This document shows positions 13,834 through 61,578 of a stretch of DNA of 64,000 bases, piece after piece. The position numbers and the translations under genes are program-made. The stretch comes from an uncultured Poribacteria bacterium (GTDB lineage Bacteria > Poribacteria > WGA-4E > WGA-3G). Location: assembly GCA_951812525.1 (NCBI GenBank), contig OX638316.1, positions 744,001-808,000 of the forward strand. The letters are read 5' to 3'. Position 1 is the first letter of the stretch; each line of letters opens with the position of its first letter. The notes under the pieces were generated by a model. It ran no database searches and was not told the DNA's origin. It saw only the letters and a list, made by a program, of their open reading frames with translations.

Positions 13834-16434
13834 ATGCGAATTTTAATACTTTTATTGATTTTCTGTATCTTGTCCTCGGCGTGGAGTGACATTCAATTTG
13901 AAGAAGTGTCCCAACGGGCGGGGATTAATCGCATCGGTGAAAGTTGGGGAAATGCATGGGGTGATTTTGATGGCGACGGCTATCTCGATTTATGGGCTAC
14001 CAATCACAAGCATAAACCGAGTCTCTATCGTAACAACGGTGATGGCACTTTCACAGACATCATCGACGAGGTATGGCAGGCATATTCGTTTGCAGATACA
14101 CACGGTGTAGCATGGGCAGACTATGATAACGATGGTGACCAGGATTTGATGGTTTTATCAGGAAGCGGCGGTGGAAGGAACACGTCAACTAACCGTAAAC
14201 AGAATAACCATTTCTACATAAACAGGAACGGACAACTGGTTGAAAGTGCTGCTGAATTTGGTATAGCCTTACCAATTTTACGCGGTAGAACGCCTATTTG
14301 GTTCGACTGGAATAACGATGGAAACTTAGACATTCTCCTAACAGGTATGCTTCGAGAAGACAAGAAGGGGAACCAGATAACCTCATTTTTACTACAGCAG
14401 ACCGAGATGAGCGTCTTCAGGGAAGCCAATCTTCATGTAGGATTCAACCTTGAAAAAAGTGCCGCTCTCGCACAACTCTCAGACATAACAGGTGATGGGA
14501 GTATGGACTTAATTGTCGCATCCGCCCCTTATCCAGGATCAGTATTTCAGATGTCAGTCCCTGGACAGTTTAAGGAAATAACAGGAAGCCTTAACTTCCC
14601 TAGCTATTACAATGTACAAGATGCCATCTTTGCTGATTTCAACGGAGACCTACTCCCAGATGTTTTTCTTGCACGTGATGTATATCGCTCTTATATAAAC
14701 ACCGTTGATAGTCATACGCTACAACTTAACATTCGAAACAACCAAGGTGAAAAGGGAATAAGTTTTAGTGCGGATTCTGATGTCTATTTTGAAATCTATT
14801 CCGTTTGGGAACCTCGGCTATCTCTTGTCTCTATTGGTGAAGGCGGGTATGATATTAACCAGTTTAACGGAGAATTTGTCGGTGCGGACCCCGAACGAAA
14901 CGTTGCCTCCTTTAAATTTCAGTTATCTCCAAAAGACCCTCGGATTGTAGGATTAAAACCCCGTCCCGAATTTGATCTCTTCGGAATTTACGTAGGATAT
15001 GATGTCGAGACGAAACAATGGACACTTCTATACCACAAAAGTTCACATACCAATAATTGGACCGGCTTTGAAGCAGTAATCTCAGCGCAAACACCAATAT
15101 CGAACATAGAATCAATTAACTTTTCTACAGCCGACCTGTCCTACACCCCACAATCGGTAATTTTAACAAGACGTAGAAGCGGTCCTGGTTATTTCGGTAA
15201 TCTGAGTCGGTTTAAACCCGCAATGTTGTTTTCAGACGGTAGATCCGTCGCTGCGGGTGATTTTGACAACGATATGGATATTGACGTATATCTTGTTCGA
15301 TCAAGCAGTGCCGGGAACCTTCCCAATCATCTCTATGAAAACCGGGGCGATGGAATTTTTGTCCGACCTATCAATTCAGGACAAGCGATGGGAAGTATGC
15401 AGGGTAGAGGACAAAGCGTTACGATGGCTGACTATGATCGGGATGGATACCTTGATCTTTTTGTCACCAACGGCAGAGGCGCATATCCTTTTAACGAAGG
15501 ACCAGATCAGCTTTTCCACAACACAGGTAGTGGCAATAACTGGCTTCAGATTGATTTAGAGGGAACTGTTTCAAATCGAGATGGAATTGGAGCGAGAATT
15601 TTCGCGACTACACCGGATGGAAAAACTCAACTGCGGGAAAATGGCGGTGGCATTCATTGGTCTCAACAAGACCAGAAACGTATCCATTTTGGACTCGCAC
15701 AGAATCAAACAGTTAAGGAACTCGTCGTCCATTGGCCCAGTGGCACTGTTCAAAGATTGAGGAATGTGCTGGTGAACCAAGTATTACGTGTTGTCGAGCC
15801 TGAAGAACAAACCCTTCTCTCTGCCGATGTCAACACAGACGGTGCGGTGGATCTTTTAGATTTAATTTTCGTTGCTAGCCACATCGACAAAAGTCCGCTA
15901 ACTGACACAAGAGCAGATGCAAATGGGGACGGCAAGGTTGACATTGAAGATTTGGTTTGGATTATAAAAGCCATTGAAGCAAAGGTAATGGCCTCCCCGT
16001 CAAATAGAACCTTATCTGAAGAAGAATTCGCCGTGCTTTTCGCGCTTCACGAAAAAATTGAAGATATACCAGCGGACTATGCACAAATAGAATTAGTAAG
16101 GCACTTCTTAAAGCAACTGTTGATGCTCATTGAACGACCTCTGGAAACGAAACTCTATGCTAACTATCCAAATCCGTTTAATCCAGAGACGTGGATTCCG
16201 TATCAGCTTGCAGAAGATACTGAGGTCACAATACGCATCTATAACGCGTCCGGGCATGTTGTACGAACGCTCTTTACTGGGATCCAAGATGCCGGATACT
16301 ACCTGAGGCGCAGCAAAGCAGCTTATTGGGACGGTAAGAATGAATTCGGTGAACAGGTAGCAAGCGGAGTTTATATCTACGAATTGACGACTCCGACATT
16401 CAAACAGACAAAACGACTCGTAGTACTAAAATAA
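13834..16434 (+). CDS. Secreted FG-GAP/ASPIC protein with dockerin and sorting domain
   Basis: An 866-residue exported protein. A signal peptide covers about residues 1-19. FG-GAP/VCBS-type calcium-binding repeats (DFDGDGYLDLW, DYDNDGDQDL, DFDNDMDIDVY, DYDRDGYLDLF) form a beta-propeller. An ASPIC/UnbV module lies at about 570-640. A dockerin-like pair of Ca-binding loops (DVNTDGAVDLLDL, DANGDGKVDIEDL) lies at about 664-718. A FlgD-like/type-A sorting domain starts NYPNPFNPETW near 777 and runs to the end. It is probably placed on the cell surface or secreted. Its position inside the polysaccharide locus suggests it is surface-associated. Function unknown; it has no visible enzyme domain. Confidence 0.85.
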   Translation: MRILILLLIFCILSSAWSDIQFEEVSQRAGINRIGESWGNAWGDFDGDGYLDLWATNHKHKPSLYRNNGDGTFTDIIDEVWQAYSFADTHGVAWADYDNDGDQDLMVLSGSGGGRNTSTNRKQNNHFYINRNGQLVESAAEFGIALPILRGRTPIWFDWNNDGNLDILLTGMLREDKKGNQITSFLLQQTEMSVFREANLHVGFNLEKSAALAQLSDITGDGSMDLIVASAPYPGSVFQMSVPGQFKEITGSLNFPSYYNVQDAIFADFNGDLLPDVFLARDVYRSYINTVDSHTLQLNIRNNQGEKGISFSADSDVYFEIYSVWEPRLSLVSIGEGGYDINQFNGEFVGADPERNVASFKFQLSPKDPRIVGLKPRPEFDLFGIYVGYDVETKQWTLLYHKSSHTNNWTGFEAVISAQTPISNIESINFSTADLSYTPQSVILTRRRSGPGYFGNLSRFKPAMLFSDGRSVAAGDFDNDMDIDVYLVRSSSAGNLPNHLYENRGDGIFVRPINSGQAMGSMQGRGQSVTMADYDRDGYLDLFVTNGRGAYPFNEGPDQLFHNTGSGNNWLQIDLEGTVSNRDGIGARIFATTPDGKTQLRENGGGIHWSQQDQKRIHFGLAQNQTVKELVVHWPSGTVQRLRNVLVNQVLRVVEPEEQTLLSADVNTDGAVDLLDLIFVASHIDKSPLTDTRADANGDGKVDIEDLVWIIKAIEAKVMASPSNRTLSEEEFAVLFALHEKIEDIPADYAQIELVRHFLKQLLMLIERPLETKLYANYPNPFNPETWIPYQLAEDTEVTIRIYNASGHVVRTLFTGIQDAGYYLRRSKAAYWDGKNEFGEQVASGVYIYELTTPTFKQTKRLVVLK

Positions 16435-44376: not shown

Positions 44377-45237
44377 TCAATAGAAAACCCTGACCGAAAA
44401 CAGTGAGGCATACGAACCTACGTACCTCCTACTCACATAAGCGTAATCTAAACTGATATTATCGCGCTGATAACCGAATCCAGCTGTAAAGCCATCGGTA
44501 AACCGCCAACCCAACCGAAAGGCAAATTCGCCGTGCCTTGCACCGTATCGGTATTCACATCCAGCAAGAGGAATGCCGTTGGCTATCTCGAAAGCTGCTA
44601 ACACAGCATCCGACTCTCTGCTCGGGACATCAACTTTTACAGCAATCCCGATACGCCACTCACGCAGAAGCGACTCGTCGTAGGATGCCTCTTCAAGCCG
44701 GTGATAGGACAAATTTGAGAACAGGTTCGGCAACATCACTCCGATGCTAACTCTCTCCCTCATGAAGGCGTGCTGGACCCCAAGATCCACTCCCCAACCT
44801 GTTCCGTGCCCTAAAGGTGTCTGTTCCAGATTAACCGAAGTGCTAAAATACTTGGCACTCATGCCGACGCACAGCTGTTTCCACACACGAGTTGCAGCAG
44901 ACAGCAGTACGATTCGTTCATGCGAAAGTCCTTCTGTATCGCTTGAATTGAGGATTGCTGCGCCGAGGGTCTGGCCCGTCCGAATTGGGTGTGCCACTCC
45001 GACAAAGCTATAACCGAGCAGACCGTATAAATCCAAGTAACCGATACCGATTTCCGCGGCAGGGAGCCGTACCAAACCCGCTGGATTCCATATTAGTGCA
45101 CTGGTATCATGTGTCGCCGCCGCGTACGCTCCACCCATCCCCGTGGGTCCCGCCATAAGTTCAATATTCTCAAACGCAGCGTTACCCCTCCCATTCAGAA
45201 GCAAAATTAGCATGAACAGAAGGCTTCGGTAAAGCAC
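44377..45237 (-). CDS. PorV/PorQ-like outer-membrane beta-barrel protein
   Basis: A 286-residue exported protein with signal peptide (LLFMLILLLNGRGNA). It has MAGPTGMGGAYAAATHDTSALIWNPAGL, typical of PorV/PorQ and related FadL-like barrels, followed by alternating strands (IGIGYLDLYG, LGVQHAFM) and a C-terminal aromatic-ended strand (VRVFY). PorV shuttles type IX-secreted cargo at the outer membrane, which is interesting because two proteins in this window have type-A sorting domains. The start is GTG at 45237; an alternative is possible. Confidence 0.68.
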   Translation of the reverse strand: MLYRSLLFMLILLLNGRGNAAFENIELMAGPTGMGGAYAAATHDTSALIWNPAGLVRLPAAEIGIGYLDLYGLLGYSFVGVAHPIRTGQTLGAAILNSSDTEGLSHERIVLLSAATRVWKQLCVGMSAKYFSTSVNLEQTPLGHGTGWGVDLGVQHAFMRERVSIGVMLPNLFSNLSYHRLEEASYDESLLREWRIGIAVKVDVPSRESDAVLAAFEIANGIPLAGCEYRYGARHGEFAFRLGWRFTDGFTAGFGYQRDNISLDYAYVSRRYVGSYASLFSVRVFY

Positions 45238-45681: not shown

Positions 45682-46479
45682 ATGTCTATGTTTAAAAGTG
45701 TGCGAATAACGCTAGCGAGTTTTATGGTAGTTTTTCTACTGATAGCACTGCCCAGTCTTGCCGAGATTGACCCGAAGAATATTATGGGAATGTGGCTCTT
45801 CGACGAGGGGAAAGGTGGTGTCGCCACCGATTTGTCAGAACACGGAAACGATGGTGAAATTCACGGTGCAAAGTGGGTAGACGGAAAATTTGGCAAGGCA
45901 CTCGAATTTGATGGCGTTGACAATTGGGTTGAGGTGTCGCATTCAAAGACCGTAGGGTTTGAAGCGGGTGTCTCATTCACAATCACCCTCCATTTCAAAG
46001 GCACAAAAGTCGGTGGAGCACTTGTCGGAAAGAACTACGAGGACACATCGCAGGCACTCCCATGGTACCTACTCTGGGACGATGGTGCTGCTAACAAGGT
46101 AACACTCTATCTACGTGATAGTGCGTCAACCAGTTTCCGAGCAGACGGTACAACCGCTATCGGCGATGACAAATGGCATTTCATCGTCGCCAGAGCCGAT
46201 GCCGATGCAGGTAAGTCTTCAATATGGATAGACGGTGAGATGGAAGCCGAAGCAGACTTCAATAAAAAAGATGGCTACGGCACCAGTGAAGGTGTGTTTC
46301 ACATCGGACGGCACTATGAACGGTTTACTGCCGGCATCATTGACGATGTCGCCCTTTTCAATGTCGCCTTAGAAGAAGAAGACATGGAAAACATTATGAA
46401 CAATGGCGTTGAAACCGCTGCCGCAGTGGATCCTGTGAGCAAATTGGCGACAACATGGGGCAGAATTAAACGCCAATAG
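45682..46479 (+). CDS. Secreted LamG-domain protein with C-terminal TWG tag
   Basis: A 265-residue exported protein. The signal peptide (ITLASFMVVFLLIALPSLAE) is followed by one LamG/concanavalin-A-like domain (MGMWLFDEGKGGVATDLSEH to IDDVALFNVALEEED, read in part), probably a carbohydrate- or protein-binding lectin fold. The C-terminus VDPVSKLATTWGRIKRQ is the shared tag. AAGGAGGA precedes the ATG at 45682. The Sec-peroxiredoxin gene begins 12 bases after its stop, so they form one operon. Confidence 0.85.
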   Translation: MSMFKSVRITLASFMVVFLLIALPSLAEIDPKNIMGMWLFDEGKGGVATDLSEHGNDGEIHGAKWVDGKFGKALEFDGVDNWVEVSHSKTVGFEAGVSFTITLHFKGTKVGGALVGKNYEDTSQALPWYLLWDDGAANKVTLYLRDSASTSFRADGTTAIGDDKWHFIVARADADAGKSSIWIDGEMEAEADFNKKDGYGTSEGVFHIGRHYERFTAGIIDDVALFNVALEEEDMENIMNNGVETAAAVDPVSKLATTWGRIKRQ

Positions 46480-49991: not shown

Positions 49992-50579
49992 CTAATTTGA
50001 CTTAACTTCACCCCAAGTTGTTGTTAAATTCCCAGTCGGATCCACAGGAAGGACACCCTCCTCAAGGAAGATAGTCCACATGAGGACCGGGTCTCCGATT
50101 ACCTCGTCAATACCGAGCAATTCCACCGTTCCTTCCGGATGCGGTTCATTGGATTTGTAGATAAAGTACTCCGTCGGAGCATGGGGTGCATCAAGCATCA
50201 GTATTTCGTCTGTATCGGTATACCCGTCTGTAAACCAGCCTTTCGGATCTTGTCCGCGGTCTTCCGGGCGTGTGTGTCGGCTATCCCATGCTTGGTAAAT
50301 ATACGCCGGTCGGTCGATGTCAAACGTCAACTTATAGTCCTGTCCACCAGGGCAGTCTGCTGATGTCGAAACTTGGGTGAATCCGAGAAAGTCTTTTGGG
50401 ATATTCGTAATCGTATAGTCCCGATCGTGGAAGAATTTTCCACCTTCCTCCAACTCGACGGCTTTATAGATACCACCCTTGTTATCCTCTATTTCTGTGA
50501 CCACTACTGCGTCGCTAGCAAAAACAATTAAGGTAGCTGCAATAAACAGTGCAGCCATACAAACATACGTCAATTTCAT
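49992..50579 (-). CDS. Small secreted protein with C-terminal TWG tag
   Basis: A 195-residue exported protein with a signal peptide (KLTYVCMAALFIAATLIVFA). The mature part (GIYKAVELEEGGKFFHDRDY, then ADCPGGQDYKLTFDIDRPAYIY) is beta-rich and has no family I recognise. The C-terminus VDPTGNLTTTWGEVKSN is the shared tag. Start at 50579: AAAGGAG precedes it, and a perfect promoter lies upstream. The longer frame from 50690 would begin upstream of that promoter. Confidence 0.75.
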   Translation of the reverse strand: MKLTYVCMAALFIAATLIVFASDAVVVTEIEDNKGGIYKAVELEEGGKFFHDRDYTITNIPKDFLGFTQVSTSADCPGGQDYKLTFDIDRPAYIYQAWDSRHTRPEDRGQDPKGWFTDGYTDTDEILMLDAPHAPTEYFIYKSNEPHPEGTVELLGIDEVIGDPVLMWTIFLEEGVLPVDPTGNLTTTWGEVKSN

Positions 50580-59856: not shown

Positions 59857-61578
59857 CTACTTCCGAATCAACATCTTCCGCGTTGCAGTGAAATCTCCGG
59901 CTTTGAGGGTATAGAAATAGATACCACTCGCAACAGGCTCACCGAGTTCATTTTTGCCATCCCAATACGCCGATCGGCTTTTACTCTGATATACACCGGC
60001 AGGTTGATGTCCTAACGCCAAGGTCCGAACCAAAGTGCCGTTCACAGAATAGATTCTCAATGTGACATCAGTAGGTTTGGAGAGTTGATACGGAATCCAT
60101 GTCTCTGGATTGAATGGATTCGGATAATTGAACAACAGAACAGTCTCTTTCGGGGTCAACATCGCGAGAAGTTGTTCCAATACGAGAAGCCCACGCTGAA
60201 AAGCAGGATCAGTAAGATTTACTTGCAGCGTTTGACGCAGCCACGTTTCCACTTGCTTTCTTGTAGGAGTGATTTCCAAATTGTAACCCGATACTGACGG
60301 CGCACCTGGAGTATCGCCTATCATCCCAGCAACCAACGTCAGATCTATGATATTCACCACACCATCCCCGTTGACATCCGTAATGGTGCGTCCAGTTTTC
60401 CCAAAACACCTCGAAACGAGTGTGAGGTCTTGGATGTTCACAACACCATCAGCGTTAACGTCTTCTCGCTTCCGTGTTTGTGCCGTGCTCTCTTCCTGAA
60501 TCAGCATCGTGAATTCCGAGAGGGCTGCTTCATTTTGAATTAAAGTTTGGAAGTCTGGGTCCCTAAAGAAACCTATGATCTCAGGGGTGTCTTTAATATA
60601 ATTTACAGACTCGGCATCTACACCAAATGTCCCGAGGAGTTCTGGACGCGCAACGATGATTTCAATGAATGCGGGGGTCAAAAGCGCACGATTTTCGGGT
60701 ATCTCAAGCCAGTTTAGGATATTCGGCAGCGTTCTATGAATTTTCGGTTGTTGAAACGTTTGTTTGTACCTATCAAACATTTGTGTTGCGAGTGTAACCT
60801 TTGGATAAGCAGTTGGTCGGGGCTCGTTGTTCGTAGGGAGAGTCGTCGTGAAATCTCGGGTATCCAGATAAATCTCAAAGAACATCCCCCAATTCCGTTC
60901 CTTATCACTGACCTTGACCAAGAGGAGATTATTACCGGCGTTTAGATCTACACGAAAGATGTCCTGAATTCCCGTTGTGCCTCTATTAACATCATTTATA
61001 TGTACGACTTCGCCATTGAGCCAGACTTTGACGGCATCATCACTTCCGACCCCCATCCGAATATTTCTCTGGTGCCGCGGTGAGACCACATTAATTAAGG
61101 CATACGCCGTATAGTAATCTAAATTCCTAGTATTGCTCAGCCCCACCGTATTAACCACTTCGTTGACATTGTCAGAATAGCATCCCAAAATCCAGAACAG
61201 ACAATCGACAGTCGGGCGGATGCGTCCGCGTGCCCACCGCAATTGCCCCACGGAATCATGTTCATTTATGCCGTGCTCAGCAACATAGCGTTCAGTAATC
61301 GCGCCTTGGCTGGTTATCGCGAGATAGTCCGTATTGATATTTGCACCTCTCGCAATCATCCACAGCCAAGGACCTTCTATATAAGCTTCCGTAGGAAGGC
61401 AAAAGATCCCTGTAAACAAAACAAAAACACCTACTAAAACGCATTTTGCGGGTAGTCTATATTCTGCTAAGACATAACAAAGCCTGTTCTGTGACCTTTT
61501 ACAGCAAGTCAGTCCATCGTTAGATAGCATATCTTGCGATGTGATTTGTAAACTATACCAAAAACGCTGTGGACTCAT
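59857..61578 (-). CDS. Secreted protein with dockerin pair and type-A sorting domain
   Basis: A 573-residue exported protein. A signal-like helix (residues about 46-62, CVLVGVFVLFTGIFC) follows a long charged region. Residues about 70-235 contain a PA14/CBM-like beta-sandwich (MGVGSDDAVKVWLNGEVVH, NLLLVKVSD). Ca-binding dockerin loops DVNADGVVNIQDL and DVNGDGVVNIIDL lie at about 370-420. The end (from about 483) is a sorting domain with NYPNPFNPETWIPYQL, as in the protein at 13834. AAGGAA precedes the ATG at 61578. Function unknown. Confidence 0.85.
   Translation of the reverse strand: MSPQRFWYSLQITSQDMLSNDGLTCCKRSQNRLCYVLAEYRLPAKCVLVGVFVLFTGIFCLPTEAYIEGPWLWMIARGANINTDYLAITSQGAITERYVAEHGINEHDSVGQLRWARGRIRPTVDCLFWILGCYSDNVNEVVNTVGLSNTRNLDYYTAYALINVVSPRHQRNIRMGVGSDDAVKVWLNGEVVHINDVNRGTTGIQDIFRVDLNAGNNLLLVKVSDKERNWGMFFEIYLDTRDFTTTLPTNNEPRPTAYPKVTLATQMFDRYKQTFQQPKIHRTLPNILNWLEIPENRALLTPAFIEIIVARPELLGTFGVDAESVNYIKDTPEIIGFFRDPDFQTLIQNEAALSEFTMLIQEESTAQTRKREDVNADGVVNIQDLTLVSRCFGKTGRTITDVNGDGVVNIIDLTLVAGMIGDTPGAPSVSGYNLEITPTRKQVETWLRQTLQVNLTDPAFQRGLLVLEQLLAMLTPKETVLLFNYPNPFNPETWIPYQLSKPTDVTLRIYSVNGTLVRTLALGHQPAGVYQSKSRSAYWDGKNELGEPVASGIYFYTLKAGDFTATRKMLIRK

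Follow-up and report, generated by a model that had tools for sequence, protein, structure and literature searches.

A short conserved C-terminal tag on exported proteins of unrelated families in Candidatus Poribacteria

Exported proteins with unrelated bodies in Candidatus Poribacteria carry the same 16-residue tag at their C-termini, and the evidence strongly supports that this motif is a real, selected signal. The starting point was a window of 64,000 nucleotides (positions 744001-808000 of a 5.06-Mb single contig of a Candidatus Poribacteria genome), which contains three copies of the tag. In its mode of action, the tag comes closest to a short address label at the C-terminus. The explanation that best covers all of the results is a short, probably helical signal for docking or targeting that would act after Sec export and be linked to the T9SS; we judge this whole explanation just as apt to prove right as wrong. 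Poribacteria are uncultured and best known as sponge symbionts, and they are among the dominant ones. The tag occurs on more than 100 exported proteins per genome, many of them with only a LamG domain or with no known domain, and through it one can approach directly what these symbionts put into their envelope.

The consensus of the tag is V-D/E-P-x-x-K-L-x-T-T-W-G-x-L-K. The motif proposed in the initial annotation was real and slightly too narrow, since the position-specific form is wider at several columns: V-(D/E/S)-(P/A)-x-(G/D)-K-L-(A/T/S)-(T/V)-T-W-(G/A/S)-x-(L/I/V/M)-K, then usually 1-5 residues. Numbered from the Trp (0), its columns are V(-10), D/E(-9), P/A(-8), x, G/D, K(-5), L(-4), A/T/S, T/V, T(-1), W, G/A/S, x, L/I(+3), and K(+4). 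In the tagged ORFs, the residues behind the final Lys number mostly 1-5, with R, S, Q, and K frequent among them. The three copies in the window had been assigned to exported proteins of different folds, and both the tags and the difference in folds were borne out, as follows:

45688-46479, + strand: tagged exported LamG protein of 263 aa (PF13385, E 2.7e-13), with a signal-peptide-like N-terminus, the LamG domain at residues 75-232, and the tag at residues 247-261
46426-46476, + strand: tag VDPVSKLATTWGRIKRQ of the LamG protein (position-specific score 44.4), followed by the stop codon at 46477-46479
1260-2051, + strand: tagged exported CBM9_1-like protein (PF06452, E 1.5e-13), with tag VEPSGKLALTWGALKE at 2001-2048
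49992-50579, - strand: tagged exported protein for which the Pfam scan returned no family, with tag VDPTGNLTTTWGEVKSN at 49995-50045

All three proteins have signal-peptide-like N-termini. The third is beta-rich in a low-confidence structure model, the quality of which was too poor for use.

The strict DNA pattern (L-x-x-T-W-G-x-x-K) gave 77 matches in the 5.06-Mb genome and the reversed pattern none; with a looser pattern the counts were 127 and 0. These pattern counts are unbiased. For the analyses of position, 20-kb stretches were taken around pattern matches, and more were added later; densities and position statistics from these loci are biased, as most loci were picked by the tag or by a sorting domain, and the following counts are to be read with this in mind. 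Within 1.26 Mb of this genome, 84 of the 88 regular-expression matches lay 1-8 aa before a stop codon, and 122 tagged ORFs were found in the 1.65 Mb examined. When ORFs of this genome and of related loci were assessed by the position-specific score, 307 had the tag within 15 aa of the C-terminus and three had it internally, and shuffled proteins had none. Chance or composition as the origin of the tag is ruled out by the reversed-pattern and shuffle controls. In these loci, the profile check proposed with the initial annotation gave position-specific hits that are C-terminal and on exported proteins. The extreme C-terminal place held for these 307 ORFs, although some internal copies exist, nearly all of them before T9SS sorting domains. 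The exception by the position-specific score, L084_6, has its copy 19 residues from the stop.

A signal-peptide-like N-terminus was present in 116 of the 119 tagged ORFs (97.5%) versus 272 of the 975 other ORFs (28%; p 1.6e-53; signal peptides were called by a simple rule, not by SignalP), in agreement with the earlier view that the tagged proteins are exported. BLAST comparison of the 117 longer tagged ORFs of this genome separated their bodies into 23 unrelated clusters. The families found among 80 tagged proteins included 44 LamG_3 proteins, eight PD40/TolB-like propellers, four CBM9_1 proteins, four 3-keto-disaccharide-hydrolase-like proteins, one kelch protein, and others. The tag is kept while the bodies change. 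When homologues were compared by the body alone (BLAST), most of the intact ones without the strict tag still ended in W-A, W-S, or other variants. Column conservation within the LamG alignment was set aside as evidence because most of the aligned loci had been picked with the tag pattern. Families with tagged members also include members that end instead in a T9SS type A sorting domain or a type I dockerin. At one locus (L046:3312-9115), neighboring paralogues of one exported family end in a dockerin, a sorting domain, and a dockerin, and a tagged propeller protein follows, so that three kinds of C-terminal module are adjacent.

The initial annotation had treated the tag as new, and our searches found no Pfam or NCBIfam model that matches it. 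It had no match in PDB sequences either (the best hit, E 0.13, was partial), and our literature search found no paper describing the motif. The T9SS type A sorting domain (TIGR04183/PF18962) is likewise C-terminal on Sec-exported proteins of unrelated folds, and the same families carry either module; however, it spans about 70-80 residues, forms a beta-sandwich or beta-sheet, and has motifs B, D, and E, whereas the tag has 16 residues and none of these motifs and is modeled as a helix. A short form of the sorting domain in Prevotella intermedia has 40-55 residues (PMC11969387). Neither TIGR04183 nor PF18962 was among the families listed for the 80 tagged proteins (25 of 31 Pfam and 25 of 34 NCBIfam families), and identity of the tag with the sorting domain was ruled out on these lists. 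PEP-CTERM, GlyGly-CTERM, MYXO-CTERM, and LPXTG signals are also short, conserved, and C-terminal, and a single genome has them on many exported proteins that are unrelated, but they combine a motif with a hydrophobic helix and a basic end. A hydrophobic segment is missing from the tag and tail of the tagged ORFs, as is any known sortase motif. This excludes a PEP-CTERM-like or LPXTG signal and upholds the earlier remark that the hydrophobic helix or Arg-cluster architecture of PEP-CTERM and GlyGly-CTERM is missing. Like the tag, the type I dockerin is an interchangeable C-terminal module on the same families in this genome; it has about 60-70 residues with a duplicated calcium-binding repeat, and the tag consensus lacks the D-x-N-x-D-G repeats, which rules out a dockerin. 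The encapsulation peptides of bacterial microcompartments and encapsulins resemble the tag as short terminal targeting peptides on unrelated cargo; they are like amphipathic helices, a shape that the tag may have (helix modeled at residues 249-262, pLDDT about 50-55). They were rejected since their cargo is cytoplasmic, in contrast with the 97.5% of tagged proteins that have signal-peptide-like N-termini.

The tag was annotated as different from the type A sorting domains of the window. It is distinct from them, though not fully separate, as internal copies stand at a fixed spacing before such domains. The features of this genome that bear on the T9SS are these:

13834-16434, + strand: exported protein used as comparator, which lacks the tag and has a T9SS type A sorting domain at its end (domain match 16165-16425)
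59857-61578, - strand: protein that likewise lacks the tag and has a T9SS type A sorting domain at its end (domain match 59866-60126); a tagged protein in L186 shows homology to part of its body
44377-45237, - strand: one of the PorV/PorQ-family proteins of this genome, adjoining the tagged LamG gene (NF033709, E 1.3e-17, below the curated cut-off)
L307:6077-12820 (C1 about 1481076-1487816), - strand: SprA/Sov homologue (T9SS translocon), a 2251-aa ORF (E 2.7e-41, below the curated cut-off), with a tagged LamG gene about 1.4 kb away

The type A sorting domain had 78 matches in this genome. A tag-like segment lay just upstream of it in 39 of 83 type A proteins examined, with at least five unrelated bodies, a count that is not a frequency, as many loci were chosen for this arrangement. 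The distance from the tag Lys to N(Y/F)PNPFNP was six residues in 37 of the 39 and five in the other two, a spacing that carries information, as distances of 1-10 residues were admitted in the search. In this genome, the tag preceded the sorting domain in five of the 47 proteins examined, four of them without the Trp, and 42 had no tag. Three C25 peptidases are encoded in open frames of 1703-2147 aa (L327, L328, and L329; C1 2809076, 3096014, and 1453172); they have sorting-domain matches of their own, and tagged genes lie a few kb downstream of the first. Orthologues of SprA were present in 84 of the 85 Poribacteria genomes, the exception being 81% complete, and relatives of the PorV/PorQ family in all 85. 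Co-occurrence of the tag and the T9SS does not discriminate between readings, because both are universal in the phylum. T9SS-type sorting domains were reported in Poribacteria without structural Por genes, and the pathway was called unknown (Kamke et al., 2014; PMC3909097); the SprA and PorV/PorQ-family homologues reopen this question. The PorV-like neighbor was discarded as a partner of the tag: synteny of the two genes is confined to the nearest genera, and the pair was found at none of nine more distant loci. No receptor, transporter, protease, or other enzyme for the tag was found, and no family was striking among the neighbors of tagged genes, where only large general ones (dehydrogenases, transporters) recurred.

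Several explanations were weighed. The tag could be the last structural element of one ancestral family spread by duplication, and LamG proteins do account for about half of the tagged proteins. Against this, the bodies fall into 23 unrelated clusters, the tag lies outside the LamG domain (residues 75-232), and LamG homologues from plasmid records outside the phylum align over residues 32-244 and end before the tag. The same tag also stands ahead of the sorting domain on sugar-dehydrogenase-like and FG-GAP bodies. The clusters and the LamG alignments contradict the idea that the tag is just the end of one domain family, which the initial annotation had named as a refutation of its view, and descent from a single family is hardly credible. 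An envelope protease might read the tag as a signal for degradation or quality control, which would account for a short C-terminal element on exported proteins; a degron, however, does not match residues (K, L, T, W, G, and K) that are strictly conserved across the phylum in such a large number of proteins, and degradation tags are usually nonpolar and variable, so we regard this role as very improbable. It is also rather unlikely that the tag is an assembly peptide joining tagged proteins to each other or to a putative scaffold in an extracellular complex, as a dockerin does with a cohesin; in favor of it, related bodies bear a type I dockerin in place of the tag, and the LamG, CBM9, and F5/8 domains are carbohydrate-binding types.

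A more serious candidate, which we still consider doubtful, is a site that a T9SS-type sortase recognizes and uses for attachment. A C25 peptidase would cut at or just after the tag and join the mature C-terminus to a surface glycan, and proteins with only the tag would be cargo that has lost its sorting domain and retains just the segment of the cleavage site. In its favor, the tag stands 5-6 residues ahead of the sorting domain, at the place where a PorU-type enzyme would cut, 1-5 residues usually follow its Lys, three C25 peptidases are encoded, and SprA is near-universal. However, most sorting-domain proteins of this genome have no tag, and translocation in P. gingivalis needs the sorting domain itself, which is absent by Pfam or NCBIfam from the tag-only proteins. 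Moreover, cleavage by PorU of P. gingivalis was described as sequence-independent (PMC4804311). We favor docking or anchoring over a sortase site on account of that sequence independence and because the sorting domain, which known systems require for T9SS export, is missing from most tagged proteins; the fixed position of the tag before the sorting domain still makes a sortase-linked role conceivable.

For the docking signal that we prefer, the following course is proposed. Sec would export the tagged protein first, and the tag, as a helix of about 14 residues capped by D/E-P, one face of which carries L, W, L/I, and K, would be bound afterwards. The putative binder could be either a dedicated receptor in the envelope or at the surface or an enzyme of attachment linked to the T9SS, and binding would fix the protein's location in the envelope. 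From cargo of the T9SS, the sorting domain would be cut off by a PorU-like sortase, and the tag would again become the mature C-terminus. The phages that bear the tag would use the same address. On this account, the tag may represent a separate class of sorting signal in diderm bacteria, namely a 16-residue helical C-terminal peptide without a membrane segment or folded domain, read by a dedicated envelope receptor or transpeptidase in Poribacteria, partly coupled to the T9SS, and exploited by phages, a proposal on which our judgment is evenly divided. The helical shape is suggestive only, and it comes from the AlphaFold2 model of the 263-aa LamG protein (pLDDT 88.8), which draws the tag as a helix at residues 249-262 with pLDDT of about 50-55. 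By their spacing, L(-4), W(0), and L/I(+3) would fall on one face of such a helix, and D/E-P would cap it. A fold search with this model returned a generic ConA-like lectin jelly roll, and the clostridial neurotoxin binding domains in the list of folds were dismissed, as they share the jelly-roll fold only.

The strict pattern was present in all 85 Candidatus Poribacteria genomes, with 16-166 loose matches per genome. A scan of contigs of 85,000 species gave at least 108 stretches; among the 108 listed, 107 belonged to Candidatus Poribacteria and one was labeled Pseudomonadota. A T4-like phage contig (with DNA polymerase, clamp loader, UvsX, and helicase) encodes an exported LamG protein that ends in the tag (L367:15468-16391), and a second phage contig has the same tag end at its edge (L243:6457-6560). 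Both phages probably infect Poribacteria, and their copies suggest that acquiring this label pays off. In the Pseudomonadota MAG, RHO2_bin_21, four tag-like ORFs lie on two contigs as two tandem pairs (L365:915-3140 and L366:515-2555), and a Pfam scan found no domain in the four proteins. On one of these contigs, the neighbors (Lon, SppA, and a DppA-type binding protein) fit Pseudomonadota; the tag may have arrived in this MAG by misbinning or gene transfer.

Some short ORFs carry the tag without most of the body or the signal peptide (L055:9358-9495, L059:9862-9963, L060:8794-9003, and L079:9363-9542). They are likely to be broken genes or frameshifts.
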